Shown one piece after another: positions 2,406 through 34,329 of a stretch of DNA of 64,000 nt. A program made the position numbers and the translations under genes. Position 1 is the first letter of the stretch. Each line of letters starts with the position of its first letter. The notes below the pieces were generated by a model. That model had not been told where the DNA came from. It ran no database searches and worked only from the letters and a program-made list of their open reading frames with translations. Source of the DNA: Gammaproteobacteria bacterium (GTDB lineage: Bacteria > Pseudomonadota > Gammaproteobacteria > Arenicellales > Poriferihabitantaceae); the NCBI GenBank assembly GCA_009842505.1, contig VYFG01000048.1, positions 34,324 to 98,323 of the forward strand, written 5' to 3'.

Positions 2406-4079
2406 ATGAAAAGAACCCGCACCGATGACACCCGACGCGTCTCCGCCCCCCGGGGGTCCACCCTGCAGTGCAAGAGCTGGCTCACCGAGGCGGCCTTTCG
2501 CATGATCCAGAACAATCTCGATGCGGAGGTGGCGGAGAATCCGGCGGAACTGATCGTCTATGGCGGCATGGGCCGCGCCGCCCGGGACTGGGAAAGCTTC
2601 GACCGGATCCTGGAGTGCCTGCGGGAACTCGAGGATCACCAGACCCTGCTGGTGCAGTCCGGCAAGCCGGTGGGGGTCTTTGAAACCCACGCCGACGCGC
2701 CCCGGGTGCTGATCGCCAATTCCAACCTGGTGCCCGCCTGGGCGAACTGGGACCATTTCAACGAACTGGACCGCAAGGGCCTCATGATGTACGGCCAGAT
2801 GACGGCGGGATCCTGGATCTACATCGGCAGCCAGGGCATCGTGCAGGGAACCTATGAGACCTTCGCCGAGGCGGGCCGCCAGCACTACAGCGGCAAGACC
2901 TCCGGCAGATGGGTGCTGACATCCGGTCTCGGCGGCATGGGCGGCGCCCAGCCCCTGGCGGCCACCATGGCGGGCTTCAGCATTCTCTGTGTGGAATGCG
3001 ACGAGACTCGCATCGATTTCAGACTCCGCACCGGCTATCTCGACAAGCGCGCCGCTCATCTTGACGAGGCCCTGGCCATGATCCGCAGCGCCTGCGAGGC
3101 CGGTGAGGCGGTGTCTGTGGGATTGCTCGGCAACGGCGGGGAGATCCTGCCGGAGCTGGTGAGACGCGGCGTGACGCCGGACCTAGTCACGGACCAAACC
3201 TCGGCCCACGACCCGGTAAACGGCTACCTGCCGGCAGGCTGGACCCTTGCCCGGTGGCACTCGGAACGCCGGAAGAACCCGCAGCTCGTGGTGGAACAGG
3301 CCCGCCGATCCATGGCCGACCATGTCAATGCCATGCTCGCGTTCCACAAGCAGGGGATTCCCACGGTGGACTACGGCAACAACATACGCCAGGAGGCCAT
3401 GCATTACGGCGTGGAAAACGCCTTCGACTTCCCTGGGTTCGTGCCGGCCTACGTGCGGCCGCTGTTTTGCCGCGGCGTGGGGCCGTTCCGCTGGGTGGCG
3501 CTGTCCGGCGACCCAGAGGACATCTACCGGACCGATGCCAAGGTCAAGGAAATGGTGCCGGACGACCCCCATCTGCACCACTGGCTCGATATGGCGCAGG
3601 AACGCATCCGCTTCCAGGGCCTGCCGGCGCGCATCTGCTGGGTCGGTCTCGGCATCCGCCACCGACTGGGGCTGGCCTTCAACGAGATGGTCCGGACCGG
3701 GGAGCTGAAGGCGCCAGTCGTCATCGGCCGCGACCACCTGGATTCCGGCTCCGTGGCCAGCCCCAACCGGGAGACGGAACTGATGATCGACGGTTCCGAC
3801 GCGGTGTCCGACTGGCCTTTTCTGAATGCCATGCTGAACACCGCCAGCGGCGCCACCTGGGTGTCGCTTCACCACGGCGGCGGTGTCGGCATGGGCTACT
3901 CCCAGCACGCCGGCCTGGTGATCGTCTGCGACGGCAGCGAAGACGCCGACCGGCGGATCGCGCGGGTCCTGTGGAACGATCCCGCCAGCGGCGTCATGCG
4001 GCACGCGGATGCCGGGTACCAGGACGCACGGCGATGCGCCCGGGAGATGGGTCTCAACCTCGGCGCCATCGACCTGTGA
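2406..4079 (+). CDS. hutU: Urocanate hydratase
   Basis: 557 aa; [56 protein letters not shown] motifs. Confidence 0.97.
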
Positions 4080-5083
4080 TGTCCGGACAGATCCAGATCA
4101 CCTGGCTGAACGGCCGGGACATCGAGGCGCTGGCTTTCACGGACGACGAGATCCTGGAGGCGGTGGAAGCGGGTCTCCGGTTTGCGGGGGAAGGCGAGAC
4201 CGTGATCGAACCGAGGGTGCACCTCCGGCCTGACCCCGCCTTCAACGGCCATTTCAACGTGCTCCGGGGGTACGTCGCGCCCCTTGGCACGGCGGGGGTC
4301 AAGATCGTCGGCGACTACGTCGACAACTATCGCCGGGGCCTGCCCTCCGAAATGGCGCTGCTGAACCTGTTCGACCCGCAAACCGGTATGCCGAAGGCCA
4401 TCCTCGACGCCACCGCCATCACGGAGATGCGCACCGGGGCGCTTACCGCCATCGGCGCCAAGTACCTGGCCATGAAGAATCCCAGAGTGCTCGGCCATGT
4501 CGGGGCACGGGGCACGGCGTACTGGAACGTGCGCCTGCTGGACCGTTTGTTCGATTTCGCGGAAATCCGGGTGCATTCCCGCCGGCCCGAAAGCCGCGAG
4601 GCCTTTGCCCGGCGCCTGTCCGCGGATCTGGAAAAGGAGGTCATCGCCACCGATGACTGGGAAAGCTGCCTCGACGGCGCGGACATCCTGGTGGAGGCCT
4701 CCCGCCTGCCGGAGCCGATGCCGCTGTTCCGGACCCGCTGGATACGCCCCGGTGCCCTGGTGATACCCTACGGCACCATGAGCGCCCTGGAACTGGACAT
4801 CACGGACGACATGGACAAGATCGTGGTGGATGACCGGGGACAGATGAACGCCGGCCCCCTGGGCGCCCTCAGGCCCCATATCGACGCGGGCAAGGTGAGC
4901 CCGGAATCGGTACATGGCGAGATCGGTGAAATCGTGTGCGAACGCCTTCCGGGCCGGGAGAGCGAGGCCGAGACCATACTGTTCTGGCACCGGGGCCTTG
5001 CCACCAGCGACATCGCGCTCGGGGTCGCCATGCTGCAGAAGGCCGGACGCCTGAACATCGGCCGGACGCTCGACTACACCTGA
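4079..5083 (+). CDS. Ornithine cyclodeaminase / mu-crystallin family protein
   Basis: [42 protein letters not shown]...; ATG overlaps the hutU stop; Rossmann-like GHVGARGTAYWNVRLL. Confidence 0.8.
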   Translation: MSGQIQITWLNGRDIEALAFTDDEILEAVEAGLRFAGEGETVIEPRVHLRPDPAFNGHFNVLRGYVAPLGTAGVKIVGDYVDNYRRGLPSEMALLNLFDPQTGMPKAILDATAITEMRTGALTAIGAKYLAMKNPRVLGHVGARGTAYWNVRLLDRLFDFAEIRVHSRRPESREAFARRLSADLEKEVIATDDWESCLDGADILVEASRLPEPMPLFRTRWIRPGALVIPYGTMSALELDITDDMDKIVVDDRGQMNAGPLGALRPHIDAGKVSPESVHGEIGEIVCERLPGRESEAETILFWHRGLATSDIALGVAMLQKAGRLNIGRTLDYT

Positions 5084-5120: not shown

Positions 5121-5909
5121 ATGGAAGGTGAATTCAACGCCCTGAGATCGGGCATGTTCGCGGGCATCCTGCTGCTGATGCTGGTCATTGAACGGGTCTG
5201 GCCGAAGCGGCGGCAGATCGTCCCGGCCTGGCCCAGGCTGAGCACCAACCTGGGACTCATCGTCATTGACACCCTGCTCGTGCGGCTGCTTCTGCCCCTG
5301 ACGGTGGTGGGCACGGCTGTATGGGCCGCTCAGCAGTCCTGGGGGCTTTTCAACCAGGTGCAACTTCCGCCGGCGCTGGAACTGGTCGCCGCCCTGCTGA
5401 TACTGGACCTCGCCATCTACCTGCAGCACCGCGCCGCCCATCACTTCACCTGGTTCTGGCGGATTCACCGGGTCCATCATGCCGATCCGCGGTTCGATAC
5501 CACCACCGGCATCCGCTTCCATCCCCTGGAGATCATCATTTCAACCGTCTACAAGATGCTGCTCGTCGTCCTTCTCGGACCGTCCGCCATCGCCGTGCTG
5601 ATCTTCGAGATCGTCCTGAACGGAACCTCGCTGTTCACCCATACCAACGTGGCGCTGCCGCGCAAGCTGGATGCCGTGCTGCGTCTTTTGATCGTGACGC
5701 CGGACGTGCACCGGGTGCACCACTCCCACCTGAGTCCCGAAACGAACAGCAACTTCGGTTTCAACCTCACGGTCTGGGACCGGTTGTTCCACACGTGGAA
5801 GGAGCAGCCGGACAGGGGGCATGCCGCCATGGACATCGGGCTGCCGGAGTATGCCGGCGACAGGCCCACCCATCTGGGCTGGTGCCTCTGGCTGCCGTTC
5901 ACGAAATAG
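5121..5909 (+). CDS. Sterol desaturase / fatty acid hydroxylase family membrane protein
   Basis: His clusters HRAAHH, HRVHHADPRFDTTTGIRFHP, HRVHHSHLSPETNSNFG; hydrophobic N-terminus. Confidence 0.85.
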   Translation: MEGEFNALRSGMFAGILLLMLVIERVWPKRRQIVPAWPRLSTNLGLIVIDTLLVRLLLPLTVVGTAVWAAQQSWGLFNQVQLPPALELVAALLILDLAIYLQHRAAHHFTWFWRIHRVHHADPRFDTTTGIRFHPLEIIISTVYKMLLVVLLGPSAIAVLIFEIVLNGTSLFTHTNVALPRKLDAVLRLLIVTPDVHRVHHSHLSPETNSNFGFNLTVWDRLFHTWKEQPDRGHAAMDIGLPEYAGDRPTHLGWCLWLPFTK

Positions 5910-5999: not shown

Positions 6000-7409
6000 A
6001 TGACCATCGCCCTGATCGGACCCTCGGGCGCAGGCAAGGGGACGCAGGCCGCCAGGCTGGTTGCAACCCGCGACCTGCTGCACATTTCAACCGGAGACCT
6101 GTTCCGCGATGCCCTGGAGAAGAGAACGGCACTGGGATTCCTGACCCGGCAGTACATGAATGCCGGCGAGCTCGTGCCCAACGAGGTGGTCGGCTCGCTG
6201 ATCGAGGAATGGATGGTCAAGGTGATGCCCGGCAAGGAAATCCTGTTCGACGGTTTTCCCCGAACCCGTCACCAGGCCAACCTGCTGGACGACCTGTCCC
6301 GGGTCCAGGACCGCCACCTCAGGGCGGCGATCTACCTGAAGGTGTCGGATGAGGAAATCACCCGGCGCCTGCCGGGGCGGATCATCTGCCGCACCTGTCA
6401 GACGCCCTACCATGTGGAGCACCGTCCGCCGGCGGTGGAGGGCCGCTGCGACCTGTGCCGGGGTGAACTGCATACCAGGGACGACGACATCCCGGCCATC
6501 GTGCGGACGCGCATCCGCACCTCCCACCGCACCCTGGAGCCCCTGCTGGATCATTACGCGGAATCGGGCAAGCTGCTGATCGTGGACGGCGAGGGAACGG
6601 TGGACGAGGTATACGAGTCCATTTCCCACGCCATGGATGCCGTTGAGCGGGGCATCGCGGCCTTCGCCACGCCCGCGGAACTGCACGAAATCCAGCCCCT
6701 CAAGGGCACCGTCACCGCCATCAGCACCAGCGAAGCCAGACGCACGCTGGATGTCGTGCTGCTGGGCGGCCCGGGTTCCGGCAAGGGCACCCAAGCCAAG
6801 CACCTGACGAGAAATCTCGGCCTGGACCACGTCGCCACCGGCGATATCTTCCGCCACCACATCCATACCGAGACCGATCTCGGGAGGCTGGCAAAAACCT
6901 ACATCGACAACGGCGAACTGGTGCCGGACGACGTCACCGAGGCCATGGTGGAGGACCGCCTGGAACAGATCGCTCAAGGCCGCGGATTCATCCTGGACGG
7001 CTTCCCCCGCACCACCCCCCAGGCGGAGGCGCTGACGGAGATCATGAACAAGCTGCAGCGGCGGCTGGCGGCGGTAATGCACATCAAGGTGGACGATGAT
7101 GCCATCGTGGAACGCCTGTCCAACCGGCTCACCTGCCGCAGTTGCCAGACACCGTTCCATCGGCGCTACAATCCCCCGGAGAAAGAGGGCATCTGCGACA
7201 AGTGCGGCGGCGAGCTGTACGTGCGGGACGATGACAATTCGGACACGGTTCGGACCAGGCTGAAGACATACCATGCCCAGACCGAGCCGTTGATCGCCTA
7301 CTACCGGGACGCCGGCCTCCTGATGGATATTGACGGCGAACTGCCGCTCAACGAGGTGACCCGGTCCATGGCCCACGAACTGGAAAACATCAGGGCGGCC
7401 CTTTCCTAG
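6000..7409 (+). CDS. Tandem-fused double adenylate kinase (two Adk domains with zinc-type LIDs)
   Basis: Two P-loops (GPSGAGKGTQ, GGPGSGKGTQ), two GFPRT motifs, two CxxC...CxxC LIDs (CRTC...CDLC, CRSC...CDKC), two RDDD..VRTR motifs in one 469-aa ORF. Confidence 0.93.
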   Translation: MTIALIGPSGAGKGTQAARLVATRDLLHISTGDLFRDALEKRTALGFLTRQYMNAGELVPNEVVGSLIEEWMVKVMPGKEILFDGFPRTRHQANLLDDLSRVQDRHLRAAIYLKVSDEEITRRLPGRIICRTCQTPYHVEHRPPAVEGRCDLCRGELHTRDDDIPAIVRTRIRTSHRTLEPLLDHYAESGKLLIVDGEGTVDEVYESISHAMDAVERGIAAFATPAELHEIQPLKGTVTAISTSEARRTLDVVLLGGPGSGKGTQAKHLTRNLGLDHVATGDIFRHHIHTETDLGRLAKTYIDNGELVPDDVTEAMVEDRLEQIAQGRGFILDGFPRTTPQAEALTEIMNKLQRRLAAVMHIKVDDDAIVERLSNRLTCRSCQTPFHRRYNPPEKEGICDKCGGELYVRDDDNSDTVRTRLKTYHAQTEPLIAYYRDAGLLMDIDGELPLNEVTRSMAHELENIRAALS

Positions 7410-9236: not shown

Positions 9237-10130
9237 CTACTGCAGTATGCGCCGCCGCTCCCGGAACCAGATCACCAGCCCCGCGACAATCACCACCGCC
9301 GCGCCGAGGAGTGTCCAGCGATCCGGCGGGTGGTGGAATACCAGGTAGCTGAGAGCGGTCATCCAGATGATGAAACTGTAGCTGAACGGGGTCAGCATGC
9401 TGGCCTCGGCGAATCCGTGCGCCCGGGTGATGCATTCGTGGCCCAGCCAGCCGAAGAGCGGCGTCAGCAGCAGGATCAGCCATTCCTGGGAGGATTCCGG
9501 AATCTGCCACGACCAGACGCCGAAAGGCAGCAGTACCAGCGTCCCCACCAGCCCGGCGTAGAACTGCTGCGTCTGTATGGCGACCACGCCCGCCAGCTTG
9601 CGCGTAAGCAGGGTGTAGAACGCGAACAGGGTGACGTTGGAGAGCGAAAGCAGCACCGCCGGATGAAACTCGGCATCGAACGGCCGGATCGCGATCAGGA
9701 TCCCGAGGAATCCGGCGACGATTGCAGACCACCGCCAGACCCCCACGCGCTCTCCCAGGAACACCCCGGACAGCGCGCAGACGATGATCGGGGCGGAAAA
9801 CATGATGGTGGAAGTCAGGGTCAGGGGCAGGTACCGGAGTGCCATGAAATTCAGTACGGTGGTCAGCATCAGCAGCACGCCGCGCAGCACGACCAGGGAC
9901 ATCATGGAAGTACGGAAGCGGCTGAGGGACAATCCTCCCCGGCAGATCAGCACCGTGGAAATCAGGAAATGCCCCGCATAGCGGACGAGCGACACTTGCA
10001 GCACGGACAGCCCCGCCAGCACCAGCCATTTCGCACTGCTGTCGAGCATGGCGAACAGCAGGTAGGCGAGACACATGAGCAGGATGCCCGGCATCGGGCG
10101 GTCGCTCCTGGGGTTGGCGACAATGGACAT
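9237..10130 (-). CDS. EamA/DMT family transporter
   Basis: 297 aa, about 10 hydrophobic segments, EamA-like GVFLGERVGVWRWSAIVAGFLGILI. Confidence 0.85.
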   Translation of the reverse strand: MSIVANPRSDRPMPGILLMCLAYLLFAMLDSSAKWLVLAGLSVLQVSLVRYAGHFLISTVLICRGGLSLSRFRTSMMSLVVLRGVLLMLTTVLNFMALRYLPLTLTSTIMFSAPIIVCALSGVFLGERVGVWRWSAIVAGFLGILIAIRPFDAEFHPAVLLSLSNVTLFAFYTLLTRKLAGVVAIQTQQFYAGLVGTLVLLPFGVWSWQIPESSQEWLILLLTPLFGWLGHECITRAHGFAEASMLTPFSYSFIIWMTALSYLVFHHPPDRWTLLGAAVVIVAGLVIWFRERRRILQ

Positions 10131-10169
10131 GGACTGGGTATCCCCTGCCGGGCAGGGGCATGCTGTGGA

Positions 10170-11669
10170 TCAGAGGTCTTCGCAGATGCCTCCGGCGATC
10201 CGGTCTGACAGGGCGTCTATGGCATCACCAAGCGGCCGTTCCGCCGCCGCCGGTTCCACCACCTTCCTGACGCGGTCGTGAAGCTCCTCCAGCAACGGGG
10301 CCGAGGTCGGATCGCCCCGCAATTCCGCAGCCCGGCCCGCCACCATCATCTCCATGGCGCACAGTTTCCATCCCAGTTCGACCACGCCCTGCAGGCCCTT
10401 GACGGCGGCGGGCGCATTGGACTGGATGTCCTCCACGCCATCTGCGTTCACACTGGGCCAGACCGGCACCGGCATGGCCGCATGGCCAAGTTCCGCCACC
10501 ACCGACTCGGCAACCTTCATGAGCGGGGCGAAGCCGTTGGAATCGAGGCCGGGCGCCGCCAGGTATTGCGGCAATCCGCTGAAGCGCTCGCAGAGCAGCT
10601 TGCTCATTCGGGCAAGCTGCGCCTGGGACAGCTGCACCAGCGCCTGGGACAGGGCGTGGGCGGCGACCGTCAGGAGCGGCGTGTGAAACGCGCCGCAGGA
10701 GATGATGCGGTCCCCGGCAAGGTCGACCACGGGGTTGTCGCTGGCACTGTTGATTTCCGCGCAGGCCGCCTCCTTCGCGAAATCCAGCGCGGCGAATGCG
10801 GCGCCGTGAACCTGCGGCAGGTTCCGTATCGACAGCGGATCCTGCAGTCGACGCGCACCTCCCGGGTCGACGATCCGGCTCCCCGCCAGCAGCCGGCGCA
10901 GATCCCCGGCGGCCCGGGCCTGCCCCGGCTGCGGATGCAGGTCGTCCACCAAGGCATCGAGCGGAGTCGTGGATGCCGCGAACGCATCCATCGTCATGGC
11001 CGCCGCGCCCTGCACCGCGCCGAGCAGGCGTCCCGCGCCGTGGACCGCCAGTGCCATGGCCGCCGCGGAAAACCCGGAGTGGTTCGCCAGGGCGAGACCG
11101 TCCCTCGGTCCGGGCGACAGGGGGGCCAATCCCGCCGCGGACAGCGCCTTTGCGGCATCCATCGTCCGGCCCCGGGCGTCGGTCATCCGCCCTTCCCCGC
11201 ACAGGGCCAGACCCAGGACGGCCCCCTGGCAGAGGTCGCCGGCACCGATGGAACCGATGCTGCCGACCACCGGCGTGAGCCCCCGGTTGAGACACTCGCA
11301 GAGGATCTCCGGCACCGAGGCATCCGCTCCGGCGGCGCCTTTCATCAGCGTGTTCAGCCGCACCGCCATCGCGGCCCGGACCTGGGTCCTGGACAGGGGC
11401 GTACCGATGGCATGGGCCCGGCCCCGCAGGGTTTTCAGGGAAAAATCCGCCGCCTCGGACGCGGTCAGTGTCTCCGTTGCACGGGACCCGAGGCCGGTGG
11501 TGAGCCCGTAGACCTGTTCTCCCTTCCCGAAGGCTTGAAGCACCCGGTCCCGGGCCCGGCGCACCCGCTCAAGACCCGCCTCGTCCAGCGACACTCCGGC
11601 GCCGGGCGAGGCGGCGATCCGGGCAAGCTGGTCTAGGGTGAGGCTGCTGCCATCAACGACGACAGCCAT
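10170..11669 (-). CDS. HAL/PAL-family (aromatic amino acid lyase-like) protein without the ASG/MIO motif
   Basis: Family hallmarks YGLTTGLGSR, PVVGSIGSIGAGDL, DGLALANHSG, LQDPLSIRNLPQVHGA, NSASDNPVV; ATG at 11669 overlaps the upstream desaturase stop. Confidence 0.85.
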   Translation of the reverse strand: MAVVVDGSSLTLDQLARIAASPGAGVSLDEAGLERVRRARDRVLQAFGKGEQVYGLTTGLGSRATETLTASEAADFSLKTLRGRAHAIGTPLSRTQVRAAMAVRLNTLMKGAAGADASVPEILCECLNRGLTPVVGSIGSIGAGDLCQGAVLGLALCGEGRMTDARGRTMDAAKALSAAGLAPLSPGPRDGLALANHSGFSAAAMALAVHGAGRLLGAVQGAAAMTMDAFAASTTPLDALVDDLHPQPGQARAAGDLRRLLAGSRIVDPGGARRLQDPLSIRNLPQVHGAAFAALDFAKEAACAEINSASDNPVVDLAGDRIISCGAFHTPLLTVAAHALSQALVQLSQAQLARMSKLLCERFSGLPQYLAAPGLDSNGFAPLMKVAESVVAELGHAAMPVPVWPSVNADGVEDIQSNAPAAVKGLQGVVELGWKLCAMEMMVAGRAAELRGDPTSAPLLEELHDRVRKVVEPAAAERPLGDAIDALSDRIAGGICEDL

Positions 11670-12589
11670 CAGGGCGCGCCGGCAACCGCAGCAGCAGGTT
11701 TCCGGCCGAGCGCGCGATAGATCTCCCTGTTCACCCGGAAATAGCCGTGGCCGACATGGACCAGACGGTCGGATATCAGTCGGTTGGCCTGCGGCAGGCG
11801 GTGGAAGGGGATGCCCGCGTAGGCATGGTGCGCGGTGTGAAGATTCATGTTCCAGCAGAGCCGCTGCAGCAACGGGTTGGTCAGCGTGGTGCGGGTGTTG
11901 TCGAACATGTCGGGCACCTCGGGGCAACCGGTATGTTCCGCAAGCAGGAACATGCGCAGCGCCGGCTGCGCCACCATGACCGGCAGTATCCAGTACCACC
12001 ACAGCGCCGCGGTCTGGAAAACTACGGACAGCGTTGCCAGTGCGCCGTAGATCAGCAGGAACCGCCGGGCCTCCGCTACCACCGCGTCGCGCCGGGACGC
12101 CGGCACGAAATCATCAACCCGACCGGATGCATACCGAAGGAACATGCGGCCCTGGGCAACCCAGTAGGGCAGCCCGCTGACATGCCGGACATAACCCCAC
12201 CTGGAGCCGGGTTTCGGCACCCCGAGTTCCGGGTCGCCGGGGACCTGGGTGTGGCGATGGTGCGTCATGTGGAAGGACCGGAAGTACCGGGGCGGCAGGA
12301 ACAGGATCAGTCCGCAAAGGAACGCCACGCCCCGGTTCAGGCCGCGCGACGCAAAAGCGGTTTCGTGAATGGTTTCGTGCAGGGGACAGAACGAGAAAAC
12401 CAGCACCACCGCGTAGCCGCACCAGCAGAGCGCCGCCGGCACCGGCGGCAGCCACAGGGAGCCGGCGGCCAGCAGACCCAGCAGCAGCAGGTGCAGCGCC
12501 AAGGCTCCGAGGCCCGCCCCATCGGTCTTCATCACAAGGCCGGACAGGACATCCGGATCGATGGCCTGGGATCGTCGTGCCTGGGACAT
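11669..12589 (-). CDS. Membrane fatty acid desaturase family protein
   Basis: Three His boxes: HETIH, HMTHHRH, HTAHHAYAGIPFH; start MSQARRSQAID at 12589. Confidence 0.85.
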   Translation of the reverse strand: MSQARRSQAIDPDVLSGLVMKTDGAGLGALALHLLLLGLLAAGSLWLPPVPAALCWCGYAVVLVFSFCPLHETIHETAFASRGLNRGVAFLCGLILFLPPRYFRSFHMTHHRHTQVPGDPELGVPKPGSRWGYVRHVSGLPYWVAQGRMFLRYASGRVDDFVPASRRDAVVAEARRFLLIYGALATLSVVFQTAALWWYWILPVMVAQPALRMFLLAEHTGCPEVPDMFDNTRTTLTNPLLQRLCWNMNLHTAHHAYAGIPFHRLPQANRLISDRLVHVGHGYFRVNREIYRALGRKPAAAVAGAP

Positions 12590-12876: not shown

Positions 12877-15237
12877 ATGAACAGTTCCGAAGAGACAAGA
12901 CGCGAATCCGAGAGGTCCGAGGAGCGGATGGCTGCGCTGAGCGCGGCCATCCTGCGTATCAATGCGAGTCTGGATCTCGCCACCGTGCTGCAGGAGGTCG
13001 TCGACAGCGCCTGCGCGCTCACCGGCGCGCGCCACGGTGTCATCGCCGCTGCCGACGAGGCGGGTGAGATGCGCGAACTTGTCGCCTCCGGCTTCACCGA
13101 CGAGGAGCACCGTCAGTTGGCGAAGTGGTCCGAAGAGGCGCGATTCTTCGAGCACTTCCGGGACTTTTCGGGGCCGGTGAGTCTCGACGACCTGCCGCCC
13201 GATATCCTCGCGGACGGCAGCCCGGAGCACCCGATGCCGACCAGGACCTTCCAGGTCACCCCGGTGCGCCACGGGGGCGAGCACATGGGCAGCTTCTTCC
13301 TAGCCGGCAAGGAGGGCGCCCCGGAATTCACCGGGGAGGATGAAGAGGCGCTCGTGCTCTTCGCCTCCCAGGCCGCCACCGCGATCGCAAACGCACGCGC
13401 GCGCCGCGACGAACAGCGTGCCCGGGCGGACCTCGAGGCCCTGGTCGAGACTTCGCCGGTCGGTGTCGTCGTGTTCGACGCGCGGACCGCGCGCACGATG
13501 TCGATCAACCGGGAGGCGCGGCGCATCGTCGAGGGACTGAACACCGCGAGCCGCGCTTCGGGAAATCTGCTCGAGGTGTTGACCTGCCGCTTCGCGGACG
13601 GCAGCGAGGTCGCGTTCCCGGAAATCCCCCTGATCCGCGCACTCGGCAACGCCACCACGATGCGCGCCGAGGAAATCGTGCTTTCGGTGCCGAACGGGCC
13701 CAGCGTCAGGACCCTCATCAACGTGACGCCGATCCGTTCCGACGACGAGGAGGTCGTCTCGGTGGTCGTCACCCTGCAGGACCTGGCGCCGCTTGAGGAA
13801 CTGGAACGGCAGCGGGTGGAGTTCCTGAGCATGGTGAGCCACGAACTGCGCGCCCCCCTGACCTCCATCAAGGGCTCGTCCGCCGCGGTGCTGGGTGCCG
13901 CGCCCGCGTTGCCGCGGGCCGAGATGCTGCAGTTCTTCCGCGTCATCGACGGCCAGGCCGACCACATGCTGGGCCTGATCGGCAACCTGCTCGACGCCGG
14001 CCGGATCGAGGCGGGCACGCTGTCGGTGGAACCGGAATCCTCGGAGGTGGCCGCCCTCGTGGACCGGGCGAGGAACACCTTCCTGAGCGGCGGCGCCAGG
14101 CATGCCGTTCGCATCGAGCTGCCGCCCGATCTCCCCCGGGTGATGGCGGACCGGGAACGCATTGTCCAGGTGCTGAACAACCTGCTGTCCAACGCGGCTC
14201 GGCACTCACCGGAATCCACCCCGATCCGCGTGGAGGCGGCGCACGAGGGGGTGCATGTCGAGGTCTCGGTCTGCGACTGGGGCCGGGGCATGCCGCCTGA
14301 GATGCTGGCGCAGCTCTTTCGCAAGCATGTCGCCCTCGACGGCGCCAACGCCGGGGGAGGGATCGGAACAACGGGCCTGGGGCTGGCCATATGCAAGGGG
14401 CTGGTGGAGGCTCACGGGGGCCGCATCCGCGCCGAGAGTGCGGGGCTCGGCAAGGGCGCGCGGTTCGCATTCACGCTTCCGGTGGCCGATGCCGAGGAAG
14501 TCCGGTCCTATCCCCAGCAGCCCCCGGGCCGCCCGGACCTGCCCGGCGACTCACGGGAGAAGCCACGCATCCTGATCGTGGATGACGACCCGAAGATGCT
14601 GCGCTACGCGCGTGACTCCCTCACCCAGGCGGGCTATACCGCGCTGGTGACCGGTGACCCGGAAGAGATTTCCGATCTGATCAACACAGAAAAGCCCCGG
14701 CTGGTGCTGCTCGATCTCATGCTGCCGGGGGCTGACGGCATCGAGCTGATGGCGCAGATTCCGGAACTCTCCGATCTGCCTGTCATCATCATCTCCGGTT
14801 ACGGCCACGACGAGACGCTTGCGCGCGCCTTCGACAGCGGCGCGGCGGATTACATCGTCAAGCCCTTCTCGCCGACCGAACTCACCGCAAGGGTCGGGGC
14901 GGCGTTGCGCAGTCGGGTGAGCCCGGAGCCATTCGTGCTCGGCAGGCTCGCCATCGATTACGAGCTGCGCCGGGTGACGGTGGGCTCGCGGGCGGTGATC
15001 CTCACCGCCACCGAGTACGAACTGCTGCGCATCCTCTCGGTCAACGCCGGGCGGGTAGTGACCTCCGGGTCGCTGCTGCGCCGGTTCTGGAGCACGCGGA
15101 GTCCCGACGATACCGAGCCCGTGCGCACCTTCGTGAAGAAACTCCGGGCCAAGCTCGGCGACGACGCGGGCTCTCCCACCTATATCTTCAACGAGCGCGG
15201 CGTCGGCTACCGCATGGCAAGACCGGGGGAGCAATGA
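12877..15237 (+). CDS. Soluble GAF-PAS-HisKA-HATPase-REC-winged helix (OmpR-type) one-protein two-component regulator
   Basis: H-box MVSHELRAPLTSIKGS, NNLLSNAARHSPE, GIGTTGLGLAICKGLVEAHGG, REC ILIVDDDPKM...LLDLMLPGADG...KPFSPTEL, Trans_reg_C LTATEYELLRILSVNAGRVVT...VKKLRAKLGDD...RGVGYRM. Confidence 0.93.
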   Translation: MNSSEETRRESERSEERMAALSAAILRINASLDLATVLQEVVDSACALTGARHGVIAAADEAGEMRELVASGFTDEEHRQLAKWSEEARFFEHFRDFSGPVSLDDLPPDILADGSPEHPMPTRTFQVTPVRHGGEHMGSFFLAGKEGAPEFTGEDEEALVLFASQAATAIANARARRDEQRARADLEALVETSPVGVVVFDARTARTMSINREARRIVEGLNTASRASGNLLEVLTCRFADGSEVAFPEIPLIRALGNATTMRAEEIVLSVPNGPSVRTLINVTPIRSDDEEVVSVVVTLQDLAPLEELERQRVEFLSMVSHELRAPLTSIKGSSAAVLGAAPALPRAEMLQFFRVIDGQADHMLGLIGNLLDAGRIEAGTLSVEPESSEVAALVDRARNTFLSGGARHAVRIELPPDLPRVMADRERIVQVLNNLLSNAARHSPESTPIRVEAAHEGVHVEVSVCDWGRGMPPEMLAQLFRKHVALDGANAGGGIGTTGLGLAICKGLVEAHGGRIRAESAGLGKGARFAFTLPVADAEEVRSYPQQPPGRPDLPGDSREKPRILIVDDDPKMLRYARDSLTQAGYTALVTGDPEEISDLINTEKPRLVLLDLMLPGADGIELMAQIPELSDLPVIIISGYGHDETLARAFDSGAADYIVKPFSPTELTARVGAALRSRVSPEPFVLGRLAIDYELRRVTVGSRAVILTATEYELLRILSVNAGRVVTSGSLLRRFWSTRSPDDTEPVRTFVKKLRAKLGDDAGSPTYIFNERGVGYRMARPGEQ

Positions 15238-15261: not shown

Positions 15262-16182
15262 CTATTCCCTGCGGGCTCTCCCAATCCCGGAGCCCGGGTC
15301 CCGGCCGACCGCCATCATCCGTTCCCGCTCCTCCCTGAGACCCAGAAGCGAGTTGACCATCAGGGTGGCCACGACGATGGCACCCCCGACCAGGGAATGG
15401 GCCCCGGGATTCTCTCCCAGCGCCAGCCAGACCCAGACGGGTCCCAGCACGGTTTCCAGCAGCATCATCAGGCCCACTTCCGGCGCCGGCAGGTATTTTG
15501 GTCCGAGGAACATCAGCGCATTGGCCACTGGCAGCATGATCATGCCCATGACGATGAGCCAGCCGAGGTCGGCGTTGGTGGTTTCCCCCGGAGCCACCAG
15601 CGGGGCCAGGAACAGGGCGGTGAAAATCCCGCCAAGGCCCAGCGCGGGCATGATATCGCGGTTGCGGGCGGCCCGGATGAGGGAAAACTGGGTGCCGAGA
15701 ATGAAGGCGGCGCACAGTCCGACAATGTCCCCGAGCCAGGCCCCCTCGAGGCGGACGCTGCCCCGGGTGATCACCGAGATCCCCACCATCACCATGACGA
15801 TGGCGAACCAGGTGCGCCGCGGGACGCGCTCTCGCAGGAACAGCCAGGCGATCACCGCGGCCCAGATCGGTGTGGTGCTCAACATGAACAGTGTGTTCGC
15901 CACCGAGGTATGGGTAATGGAATAGATGAAGCAGGTATTGCCAAGCCCGAAACAGATCATGATGCCGTATTCCGCGGCGGAGAACCGGCCTAGGTGTGCG
16001 AACAGCCGGCCGCGATAGCGCAGGACGGCGAACAGCGAGACGACGATCCCGTACAGCAGGCAGCGCCAGAACGTGATGGTCAGGGCTTCCGCCTGGATCA
16101 GCCGTGTCAGCAGGCCGTCGGGGCTGAGGGCGAGTACCCCGAGCATCGTGATCAGATACCCCTTGGATCGGGTCGACAGCAT
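15262..16182 (-). CDS. EamA/DMT family transporter
   Basis: MLSTRSKGYLITMLGVLALSPDGLLTRLIQAEALTITFWRCLLYG; repeated EamA modules. Confidence 0.85.
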   Translation of the reverse strand: MLSTRSKGYLITMLGVLALSPDGLLTRLIQAEALTITFWRCLLYGIVVSLFAVLRYRGRLFAHLGRFSAAEYGIMICFGLGNTCFIYSITHTSVANTLFMLSTTPIWAAVIAWLFLRERVPRRTWFAIVMVMVGISVITRGSVRLEGAWLGDIVGLCAAFILGTQFSLIRAARNRDIMPALGLGGIFTALFLAPLVAPGETTNADLGWLIVMGMIMLPVANALMFLGPKYLPAPEVGLMMLLETVLGPVWVWLALGENPGAHSLVGGAIVVATLMVNSLLGLREERERMMAVGRDPGSGIGRARRE

Positions 16183-17390
16183 CAGCAGCCAGGCAGGTGT
16201 TCTTTCACGGAGGCGGCCAGCGCCCGGGGAACCCGGCCGGACAGGTCGACGCCCTGGCAGCCGTTGAAGGCGGCGAAATCCCGCAATGCCCGGGCGAACG
16301 CCACGGCGAAGCGGTCCGTTGCCCGCAACCCGGGTTCCGGCACCAGGCACCGCACCTCCAACATACCCAGATTCCGGTGGGCCTTCAGGTCCGTGCGCGC
16401 TACCAGCCTGCCGCGCCAAAGCACCGGCAGGACGAAGTACCCGTACACCCGTTTCCCTTCGGGGACATAGCATTCCAGCTGGTAGTCGAAATCAAACAGT
16501 TCCCTGACTCGCCTGCGCTGTATGACCAGGTTGTCGAAGGGCGACAACAGGCAGGCCTTCTCCCTTTGCAGGCGATGGTTCAGCAGGTCCAGGGAATCCG
16601 GCAACACCAGCCAGGACCCGGCCCTGACCCTGACCTCGAGGATCTCGCCGGACCTGACCATGGCGCGGACGACCCGGGCAACCGGATCCCGCATCCCCTG
16701 GCGCAAGTGGACGAAGTCGGTCACCCTGCCGAGGCCGTTGGCCCTGAGGAACGAGGTCACGAGATACCGGGCGAATTCCTGGCTGCCGGGCGCGGAGGTG
16801 TCCGTTCCCTCGGGCAATACCCGCTCGGTCAGGTCGTAGACCTTGTTGAACCCCTCGCGGCGCACGGACATGATGCGCCCCTCGATGAACAGTTGCTCGA
16901 GCGCATATTTCGCCGGTTTCCAGTCCCACATCTCGCGCCTCCCGGAGCCGGTGTCCTCGAAGTCCCGCGACATCAGCGGCCCTTCCTCGCGAATCCGCGC
17001 CAGCACCCGCCGCATCAGCTTCACATCCTTGGAATGCCAGCGTCCGCCACCCCCGCGTTCCGCCAGCATGCGCGGCAGGGCGAACCGGTAGTCCTCCATC
17101 GGCAGGTAGGCGGCGGCATGGGACCAGTATTCGAAAACCCTGCCCTTCGCCACCAGCCGGTCCAGGTGTGCCTGCCGGTAGCGCGGATTGCGGTTCCAGA
17201 GGGTGTGGTGGTGTGCGCGTTCGATCACCGAGATCGTGTCGATCTGGACATAGCCGAGATGACGTATGACCCGGCGGGTTGCCTCCTCGGCCGAACCGCC
17301 GGTGACAGAACGCGGTACACCCTGGCTGGCGAGGACCAGCTTGCGTGCCTCGTCGATGGAGAGCGATTCGGGAACGACTCGGGCCAATGT
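16182..17390 (-). CDS. YcaQ-like winged-helix crosslink DNA glycosylase
   Basis: LGYVQIDTISVIERAHHHTLWNRNPRYRQAHLDRLVAKGRVFEYWSHAAAYLPMEDYRFALPRM, LLSPFDNLVIQRRRVRELFDFDYQLECYVPEGKRVYGYFVLPVLW; exact start uncertain (TTG/GTG). Confidence 0.85.
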   Translation of the reverse strand, partial: TLARVVPESLSIDEARKLVLASQGVPRSVTGGSAEEATRRVIRHLGYVQIDTISVIERAHHHTLWNRNPRYRQAHLDRLVAKGRVFEYWSHAAAYLPMEDYRFALPRMLAERGGGGRWHSKDVKLMRRVLARIREEGPLMSRDFEDTGSGRREMWDWKPAKYALEQLFIEGRIMSVRREGFNKVYDLTERVLPEGTDTSAPGSQEFARYLVTSFLRANGLGRVTDFVHLRQGMRDPVARVVRAMVRSGEILEVRVRAGSWLVLPDSLDLLNHRLQREKACLLSPFDNLVIQRRRVRELFDFDYQLECYVPEGKRVYGYFVLPVLWRGRLVARTDLKAHRNLGMLEVRCLVPEPGLRATDRFAVAFARALRDFAAFNGCQGVDLSGRVPRALAASVKEHLPGC

Positions 17391-33793: not shown

Positions 33794-34329
33794 TGCACCC
33801 CGTCCCCGGCGTCGCCGTCACGGGAGGCGGCATAGAGCGAGTCCTCCAGCCAGTCACGCCGCTTGCGCTTGCGCTTGATCTGCGGCTGGTAGTGACTGAT
33901 CACGTAGCGCTCGAGCAGTTCCGTGATCTCCTCGGGCATGGGCGCCGACAGGACCATGTCGTCGGCTTCCATGTGACCGCTTGCCTCGTCCTGGTTGGCG
34001 GTCACCAGCATCGGGCGGATTTCCCGGGCACCGTATTCGCCTTCACAGACCACGAACAGGTGGGGCTTGTCGGACAGCAGGTTGTACCAGTAGCCCTCGC
34101 CGCCGTCCTTGTAGAGGTCCAGGGTGAATCCCGTGTGGATGAACCGGCTCGTGTTCCCGTCCACCTCGACCACGCTGTCCCCGCCAAGCGCCGTGATTCC
34201 CTCCCCGGTCAGGATCCCGTGGACGCGCCAGACGGGATAGCCCCATTTTTTCTCGGGATCGATCCGGCGCTCCAGCACCACGGCCACGGGCACGGAGATT
34301 CTCGAGCCGGGCCCGGCCCGCTCCCCCAT
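33790..34329 (-). CDS. DUF3305 family protein
   Basis: RISVPVAVVLERRIDPEKKWGYPVWRVHGI...GFTLDLYKDGGEGYWYNLLSDKPHLFVVCE; start ATG at 34329. Confidence 0.82.
   Translation of the reverse strand: MGERAGPGSRISVPVAVVLERRIDPEKKWGYPVWRVHGILTGEGITALGGDSVVEVDGNTSRFIHTGFTLDLYKDGGEGYWYNLLSDKPHLFVVCEGEYGAREIRPMLVTANQDEASGHMEADDMVLSAPMPEEITELLERYVISHYQPQIKRKRKRRDWLEDSLYAASRDGDAGDGVQ

Follow-up and report, generated by a model that had tools for sequence, protein, structure and literature searches.

The 64,000-nucleotide stretch analysed here (the window; contig VYFG01000048.1 of a Gammaproteobacteria bacterium, positions 34,324 to 98,323) encodes on its minus strand a protein resembling histidine ammonia-lyase (HAL) that lacks the residues forming the 4-methylideneimidazole-5-one (MIO) electrophile, and that is confirmed not to be an ordinary HutH. 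MIO-less members of the HAL family are already known, ergothionase being one. The best-conserved partner of the HAL-like lyase is a gene of the OCD/mu-crystallin family, and neither the desaturase nor the EamA transporter that flank it. Judged from sequence, the protein is probably a MIO-free betaine lyase, which would work together with the OCD-family protein in catabolism. An earlier note on this DNA had grouped desaturase, HAL-like gene and transporter; all three are real open reading frames with Pfam matches, and the genes concerned are as follows.

11669-10170, minus: MIO-less HAL-like lyase (ergothionase-type), 499 aa; PF00221, E 7.3e-114
11232-11252, minus: degenerate MIO loop, residues 140-146 (SIGAGDL) of the lyase, from alignment with HutH and ergothionase
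4079-5083, plus: OCD/mu-crystallin family protein, partner of MIO-less lyases; PF02423
2406-4079, plus: hutU, urocanate hydratase; TIGR01228, 934 bits against a cut-off of 375
1615-2394, plus: hutC, GntR repressor of histidine utilisation, preceding hutU-OCD; TIGR02018, 280 bits against a cut-off of 220
12589-11669, minus: FA_desaturase-family membrane di-iron enzyme, 306 aa; PF00487, E 2.5e-39
10130-9237, minus: EamA transporter of the earlier note, 297 aa; PF00892, E 1.7e-22

Loss of the MIO triad and placement of the lyase

MIO arises from an Ala-Ser-Gly triad. The corresponding region of the HAL-like protein is one residue short, reading GSIGAGDL where histidases have GSVGASGDL. The same shortening was found in 32/32 clade members compared (window protein counted), and all 15 close-clade sequences have the shortened loop, with no conservation of the serine (GASDL, GAGDL, GVADL, GPSDL). 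MIO therefore cannot form from Ala-Ser-Gly, and a deletion fixed throughout the clade is not a chance feature; it is common to the family in Gammaproteobacteria, Rhodobacterales, rhizobia and Streptomyces. The protein matches PF00221 end to end and shares 28-35% identity with HutH-type sequences, but it reaches only 307.5 bits against the hutH profile, under the cut-off of 539.15. The genome also encodes a true HutH just beyond the window edge (G000:C138:31805-33274), which carries the loop GSVGASGDL and scores 666 bits.

The catalytic residues Tyr54, Gln276, Arg282 and Glu413 are retained in the HAL-like protein. Relative to HAL, His83 is replaced by Arg84, Tyr280 by Leu279 (QDPY to QDPL) and Val386 by Lys385. 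Lys385 was present in 32 of 34 non-MIO rows of the alignment and in none of the 19 MIO rows, the two exceptions being of a GSVGYL type, and arginine takes the place of HAL His83 in 29 of the 34, the window protein among them. The rewired active site that the earlier note had read from the letters is thus borne out. The GSVGYL type (GSVGYL for GSVGASGDL) is likewise without a recognisable MIO triad; such proteins, with tyrosine at the Lys385 position, occur in hut clusters at L090 4953-6485 (a Klebsiella plasmid) and L074 13478-15037.

In a tree of 53 sequences, from which the MIO loop and five signature columns had been removed, all 32 MIO-less rows fell on one side of a single branch with support of 100/100. 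The AlphaFold model of the HAL-like protein (pLDDT 83.5, with segment 409-413, which holds Glu413, below 50) superimposes with TM 0.92 on ergothionase 6s7j and with TM 0.94 on Pseudomonas putida HAL (1b8f), and since it fits both alike, the fold by itself does not decide between the two.

Ergothionase, the ergothioneine trimethylamine-lyase, is known from Treponema denticola (PDB 6s7j/6s7q) and has also been reported from Burkholderia sp. HME13. The T. denticola enzyme shares with the HAL-like protein the HAL fold without MIO, the one-residue deletion (SSIGEGDI in 6s7j), QDPL/Leu279 and Lys385. Tyr54, Arg282 and Glu413 of the HAL-like protein are a further likeness to ergothionase, for which betaine elimination is known. 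The window clade differs in having Arg84 where the T. denticola enzyme has histidine. A passage of PMC13405746 that cites Maurer et al. 2019 describes ergothionase as a trimethylamine lyase lacking MIO. The likeness to P. putida HutH comprises the fold, the carboxylate-binding arginine, Tyr53 and Glu414; unlike that enzyme, the window lyase has no MIO and carries the arginine, leucine and lysine substitutions given above.

The OCD-family partner and the gene neighbourhood

The start of the OCD-family gene overlaps the stop of hutU (TGATG) within a plus-strand hutC-hutU-OCD run. The locus is linked to hut yet distinct from histidine degradation, a possibility that the earlier note had raised. 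OCD relatives with 63-70% identity were found across phyla, either beside MIO-less lyases or in the same gene run: in Rhodobacteraceae (L037, L039, L079, L080), Arenicellales (L047), Streptomyces chartreusis (L081), rhizobia including Martelella (L082-L087) and further lineages (L071, L073-L075, L077). Among 60 genomes of the order, 12 carry both genes, 2 the lyase only, 2 the OCD gene only and 44 neither (Fisher p 5e-9, relatedness ignored); outside the window's family the corresponding counts are 5/0/1/30. In a syntenic genome of the same genus (G004), OCD and lyase are both gone, whereas hutU, the desaturase, both EamA genes, AlkZ and SDR are kept. Several of the relatives compared are metagenome-assembled genomes; incompleteness cannot account for this loss, however, because the gap falls inside a continuous contig.

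Over nearly its full length the OCD protein matches PF02423, the family of archaeal alanine dehydrogenase (1omo), BhcD and pyrroline-2-carboxylate reductase. Unlike these imine reductases and dehydrogenases, it stayed far below every curated equivalog cut-off of the OCD family (its best score, 181.6 bits, was against the archaeal alanine dehydrogenase profile, cut-off 409) and has its own invariant motifs, HFNVLRG, GAR and WHRG. The literature searches returned no paper on the OCD-HAL pair; the primary ergothionase and ergothioneine sulfonate papers lay outside their coverage. An FA_hydroxylase gene at 5121 beside OCD was considered as a partner and rejected, since a similar gene follows hutU in G004, which has no OCD, and it is regarded as background.

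A third MIO-less lyase type, with GHGMAAD or GHGFAAD at the loop, was observed at L098 455-1954, L099 7278-8786, L100 1910-3457 and L101 1-463, each copy adjoining an OCD gene. The tree included three of these four lyases; the one in G057 is cut off at a contig end. The OCD-linked GHGMAAD lyases of G034, G039 and G052 keep Arg84 and Lys385, yet they fall on the MIO side; a single origin of GSIGA-DL and GHGMAAD lyases was not rejected (p-AU 0.376).

The desaturase is a frequent yet separable neighbour of the lyase. It scores 136 bits against PF00487 (cut-off 29.7), and the three histidine boxes recognised in the earlier note (H71-x3-H75, H107-x2-HH and H251-x2-HH, with H219) are present and kept in a relative of 39% identity. 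The two genes adjoin in seven family members (the window, G001, G003, G008, G009, G018 and G020), but in G002 lyase and OCD occur and the desaturase is missing, and of the three G004 has the desaturase alone. Their co-occurrence over the 60 genomes is below that of OCD (10/4/9/37 on the same scheme, p 6e-4), and outside the window's family it amounts to 3/2/7/24 (p 0.12). A sequence search of the PDB with the desaturase found no relative. Its best NCBIfam match, the membrane L-arginine hydroxylase GntB, gave 35.9 bits against a cut-off of 380, a hint at the level of the family; its family matches (GntB, CrtR) are weak, and a lipid enzyme is one possible reading. A second FA_desaturase gene near L071/L077 was set aside as a partner, as it is on the other strand and apparently in another operon. 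Next to the desaturase-lyase pair, a gene resembling GTP cyclohydrolase II is found repeatedly (L045 15933-16772, L046 14092-14634, L048 8060-8887, L049 10081-10965); the L049 copy was tested with PF00925, and no DHBP synthase domain was found in it.

At the junction between desaturase and lyase the overlap described in the earlier note exists, but its sequence is TGATG and not ATGA, the desaturase stop and the lyase start having one A in common. Likewise, the transporter does start shortly after the lyase stop, at a distance of 39 nt rather than the 40 nt given before. No terminator-like site was found in this gap (10131-10169). It does hold a GC-rich palindrome without a T tract, CCCCTGCCCGGCAGGGG, because of which transcription reading through from the lyase into the transporter is uncertain. 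None of the 28 related loci searched has a homologue of this EamA gene beside the lyase. The one relative found (82% identity, L105 in G004) stands beside the desaturase in a genome without the HAL-like gene, and the transporter was accordingly rejected as a member of the unit on gene neighbourhood. Of the proposed trio, the desaturase-lyase pair therefore holds and the transporter does not; the search for co-occurrence of the three families found no other locus, among those examined, with all of them. The EamA gene that is conserved, upstream of the desaturase and HAL-like genes, is a different one, accompanied by an AlkZ-like gene. These genes and hutI complete the annotated locus.

15262-16182, minus: second EamA transporter, with 52-78% homologues in G001, G002, G003, G008 and G004
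16182-17387, minus: AlkZ-like gene adjoining it, kept in the same genomes; PF06224
416-1642, plus: hutI, imidazolonepropionase; TIGR01224, 451 bits against a cut-off of 298

Between the desaturase and the second EamA gene, one plus-strand protein (12877-15237) combines GAF, HisKA, HATPase, receiver and OmpR-type DNA-binding domains in a fused sensor kinase, which the other members of the genus examined lack at this place. A single plus-strand reading frame at 6000-7406 holds two complete adenylate kinase domains in tandem, with a similar gene in syntenic G004 (L105 2444-3868). An Rfam scan of positions 1-22000 and a tRNA scan of the whole window gave no matches. Gene boundaries outside annotated records come from a codon-usage gene caller and similarity, by which minor genes may be missed.

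Operons of relatives contain genes for uptake, regulation and CoA activation. In rhizobia an OpuAC-type betaine ABC transporter is encoded with OCD and the MIO-less lyase, there annotated 'hutH'; OpuAC-type transporters also lie within the operons of G659 and G713. Most of these rhizobial operons additionally have a Phosphonate-bd/SsuA-type binding protein, and they hold either HutC (279 against a cut-off of 220) or two NtaA/DmoA-type flavin monooxygenases, one of which reached 225.6 bits, under the cut-off of 279.7. The HutC regulator is above its cut-off in R. johnstonii, as in the window, and the operon of that species further comprises a CoA-transferase, an SDR, MaoC and a YeiH-type exporter. 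In some genomes of the window's family, genes for CoA ligase and enoyl-CoA hydratase are found near the lyase. BenE-family benzoate-type transporters were also seen near MIO-less lyases of two lineages (L034 10832-11986, L100 4617-5807).

Proposed route and competing explanations

In the proposed mechanism, an imported quaternary amine would be the starting point of a catabolic route. The lyase would strip trimethylamine from an N-alpha-trimethylated amino acid via Tyr54, Glu413, Arg282 and the clade-specific Lys385, and since trimethylamine is already a good leaving group, no MIO electrophile would be needed. The resulting alpha,beta-unsaturated acid would be metabolised further, which fits the CoA ligase or transferase and the enoyl-CoA hydratase or MaoC genes near relatives. 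The OCD oxidoreductase may then act on the unsaturated product, by reduction or in some other way, or on a neighbouring imine-like intermediate, and a lineage-specific oxygenase, in the window possibly the desaturase, may complete the route.

A histidine-derived betaine is the most likely substrate, because OCD lies in a hutC-hutU run and several relatives are hut- or HutC-linked; this linkage suggests a urocanate-like product and thereby histidine betaine. An invariant Arg84 at the position of HAL His83 hints at a further anionic group, such as the 2-sulfonate of ergothioneine sulfonate, which in combination with the sulfonate-type neighbours becomes a candidate. An ergothioneine sulfonate catabolic pathway in Agrobacterium radiobacter (Yan, Huang, Zhang 2022) is listed in PMC13405746 and is cited here by its title; it would place an ergothionase-type trimethylamine lyase in a rhizobia-related bacterium, and its link to the window clade is putative. 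A sulfonate substrate would explain Arg84 as well as the NtaA/DmoA monooxygenases, the Phosphonate-bd/SsuA-type binding protein and the YeiH-type exporter of relatives. Still, that a sulfonated histidine betaine in particular is the substrate is a speculative proposal, more doubtful than not. Other substrates were considered and dropped. A phosphonate route was suggested by the PhnZ/TmpB-like oxygenase of L034 (TIGR03276, 219.7 against 214.6), which recurs only as a similar gene in L035, the genomes being related. A proline-betaine or hydroxyproline route was suggested by a cis-3-hydroxyproline-dehydratase-like enolase of L046 (similar in L048), which is below cut-off and confined to two genomes. 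Conversion of aspartate betaine to fumarate, prompted by Arg84, leaves the CoA enzymes and HutC unexplained.

Several observations weigh against a betaine lyase coupled to OCD. Ergothionase shares only about 25% identity with the window protein on structural alignment and forms a very long branch in the tree, and a placement among the MIO enzymes could not be rejected with confidence (p-AU 0.06). The Arg84-type lyases of G018, G020 and G417 have no OCD, the neighbourhood of the window genes yielded no betaine transporter, and a plain trimethylamine elimination offers OCD no obvious step. The sulfonate idea draws on Arg84, on sulfonate-type neighbours in few relatives and on one paper by title.

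Alternatively, the lyase could be a MIO-free dehydratase or beta-eliminase acting on an amino acid with a beta-substituent, the resulting imine being reduced by OCD (as by BhcD iminosuccinate reductase or pyrroline-2-carboxylate reductases) after the desaturase, TauD or LLM enzymes had added a beta-hydroxyl. Imine reductases do occur in the OCD family, oxygenases of varied families recur near the lyase, and G009 has a cis-3-hydroxyproline-dehydratase-like gene. However, this scheme gives no reason to expect betaine importers or HutC regulators, the retained Arg282, Tyr54 and Glu413 fit elimination of an alpha-amine, and the only MIO-less HAL known to be characterised eliminates an alpha-amine; we regard the scheme as unlikely. 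The earlier note had instead proposed one desaturase/HAL-like/EamA operon for making and exporting a small lipid or aryl metabolite. Gene order, short spacing and the desaturase-lyase pair kept in seven family members speak for such a unit, but the transporter is not a conserved neighbour of the lyase, the desaturase and the lyase each occur without the other in the same genus, and OCD and the coupling to hutU point to catabolism. Betaine importers, CoA-activating enzymes and the hutC-hutU-OCD run indicate uptake and degradation, not production and efflux, so that export now appears quite improbable.

Two further explanations are less likely still. A degenerate HutH paralogue, inactive or moonlighting and kept by chance near hut, would accord with the loss of MIO, the 28-35% identity to HutH-type sequences and the position near hut in the window genus. 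It is very hard to reconcile with conservation across phyla, clade-specific invariant residues, a full-length, unbroken gene and OCD as a recurrent operon partner. That the protein is an ordinary histidase with a MIO motif of only unusual appearance is scarcely credible: the PF00221 match and the rhizobial 'hutH' annotation agree with it, but a true HutH with intact ASG is in the same genome, and the window protein has the short loop in which the serine is not conserved, the changes at His83 and Tyr280, and a score under the hutH cut-off.

Implications for the lyase family

More broadly, a widespread bacterial pathway may be envisaged, if only tentatively: a MIO-free betaine lyase of the Arg84 type, often annotated as hutH, would degrade a quaternary amine together with a dedicated OCD-family oxidoreductase and with oxygenases interchangeable between lineages (membrane desaturase, HD di-iron, TauD/PhyH, LLM). 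Perhaps this coupling arose in two subfamilies of lyase, GSIGA-DL and GHGMAAD. Rhizobial 'histidine ammonia-lyase' and marine 'aromatic amino acid lyase' genes of this kind are without MIO-forming residues and travel with OCD, in some lineages also with betaine importers. The combination of GSIGA-DL, Arg84 and Lys385 separates MIO-less lyases from histidases by a simple sequence test, and the OCD-lyase pair is a two-gene system open to direct assay. Should the encoded enzymes prove to be betaine lyases, trimethylamine in soil and sea would have a source that has gone unrecognised, and the genes would have to be renamed.

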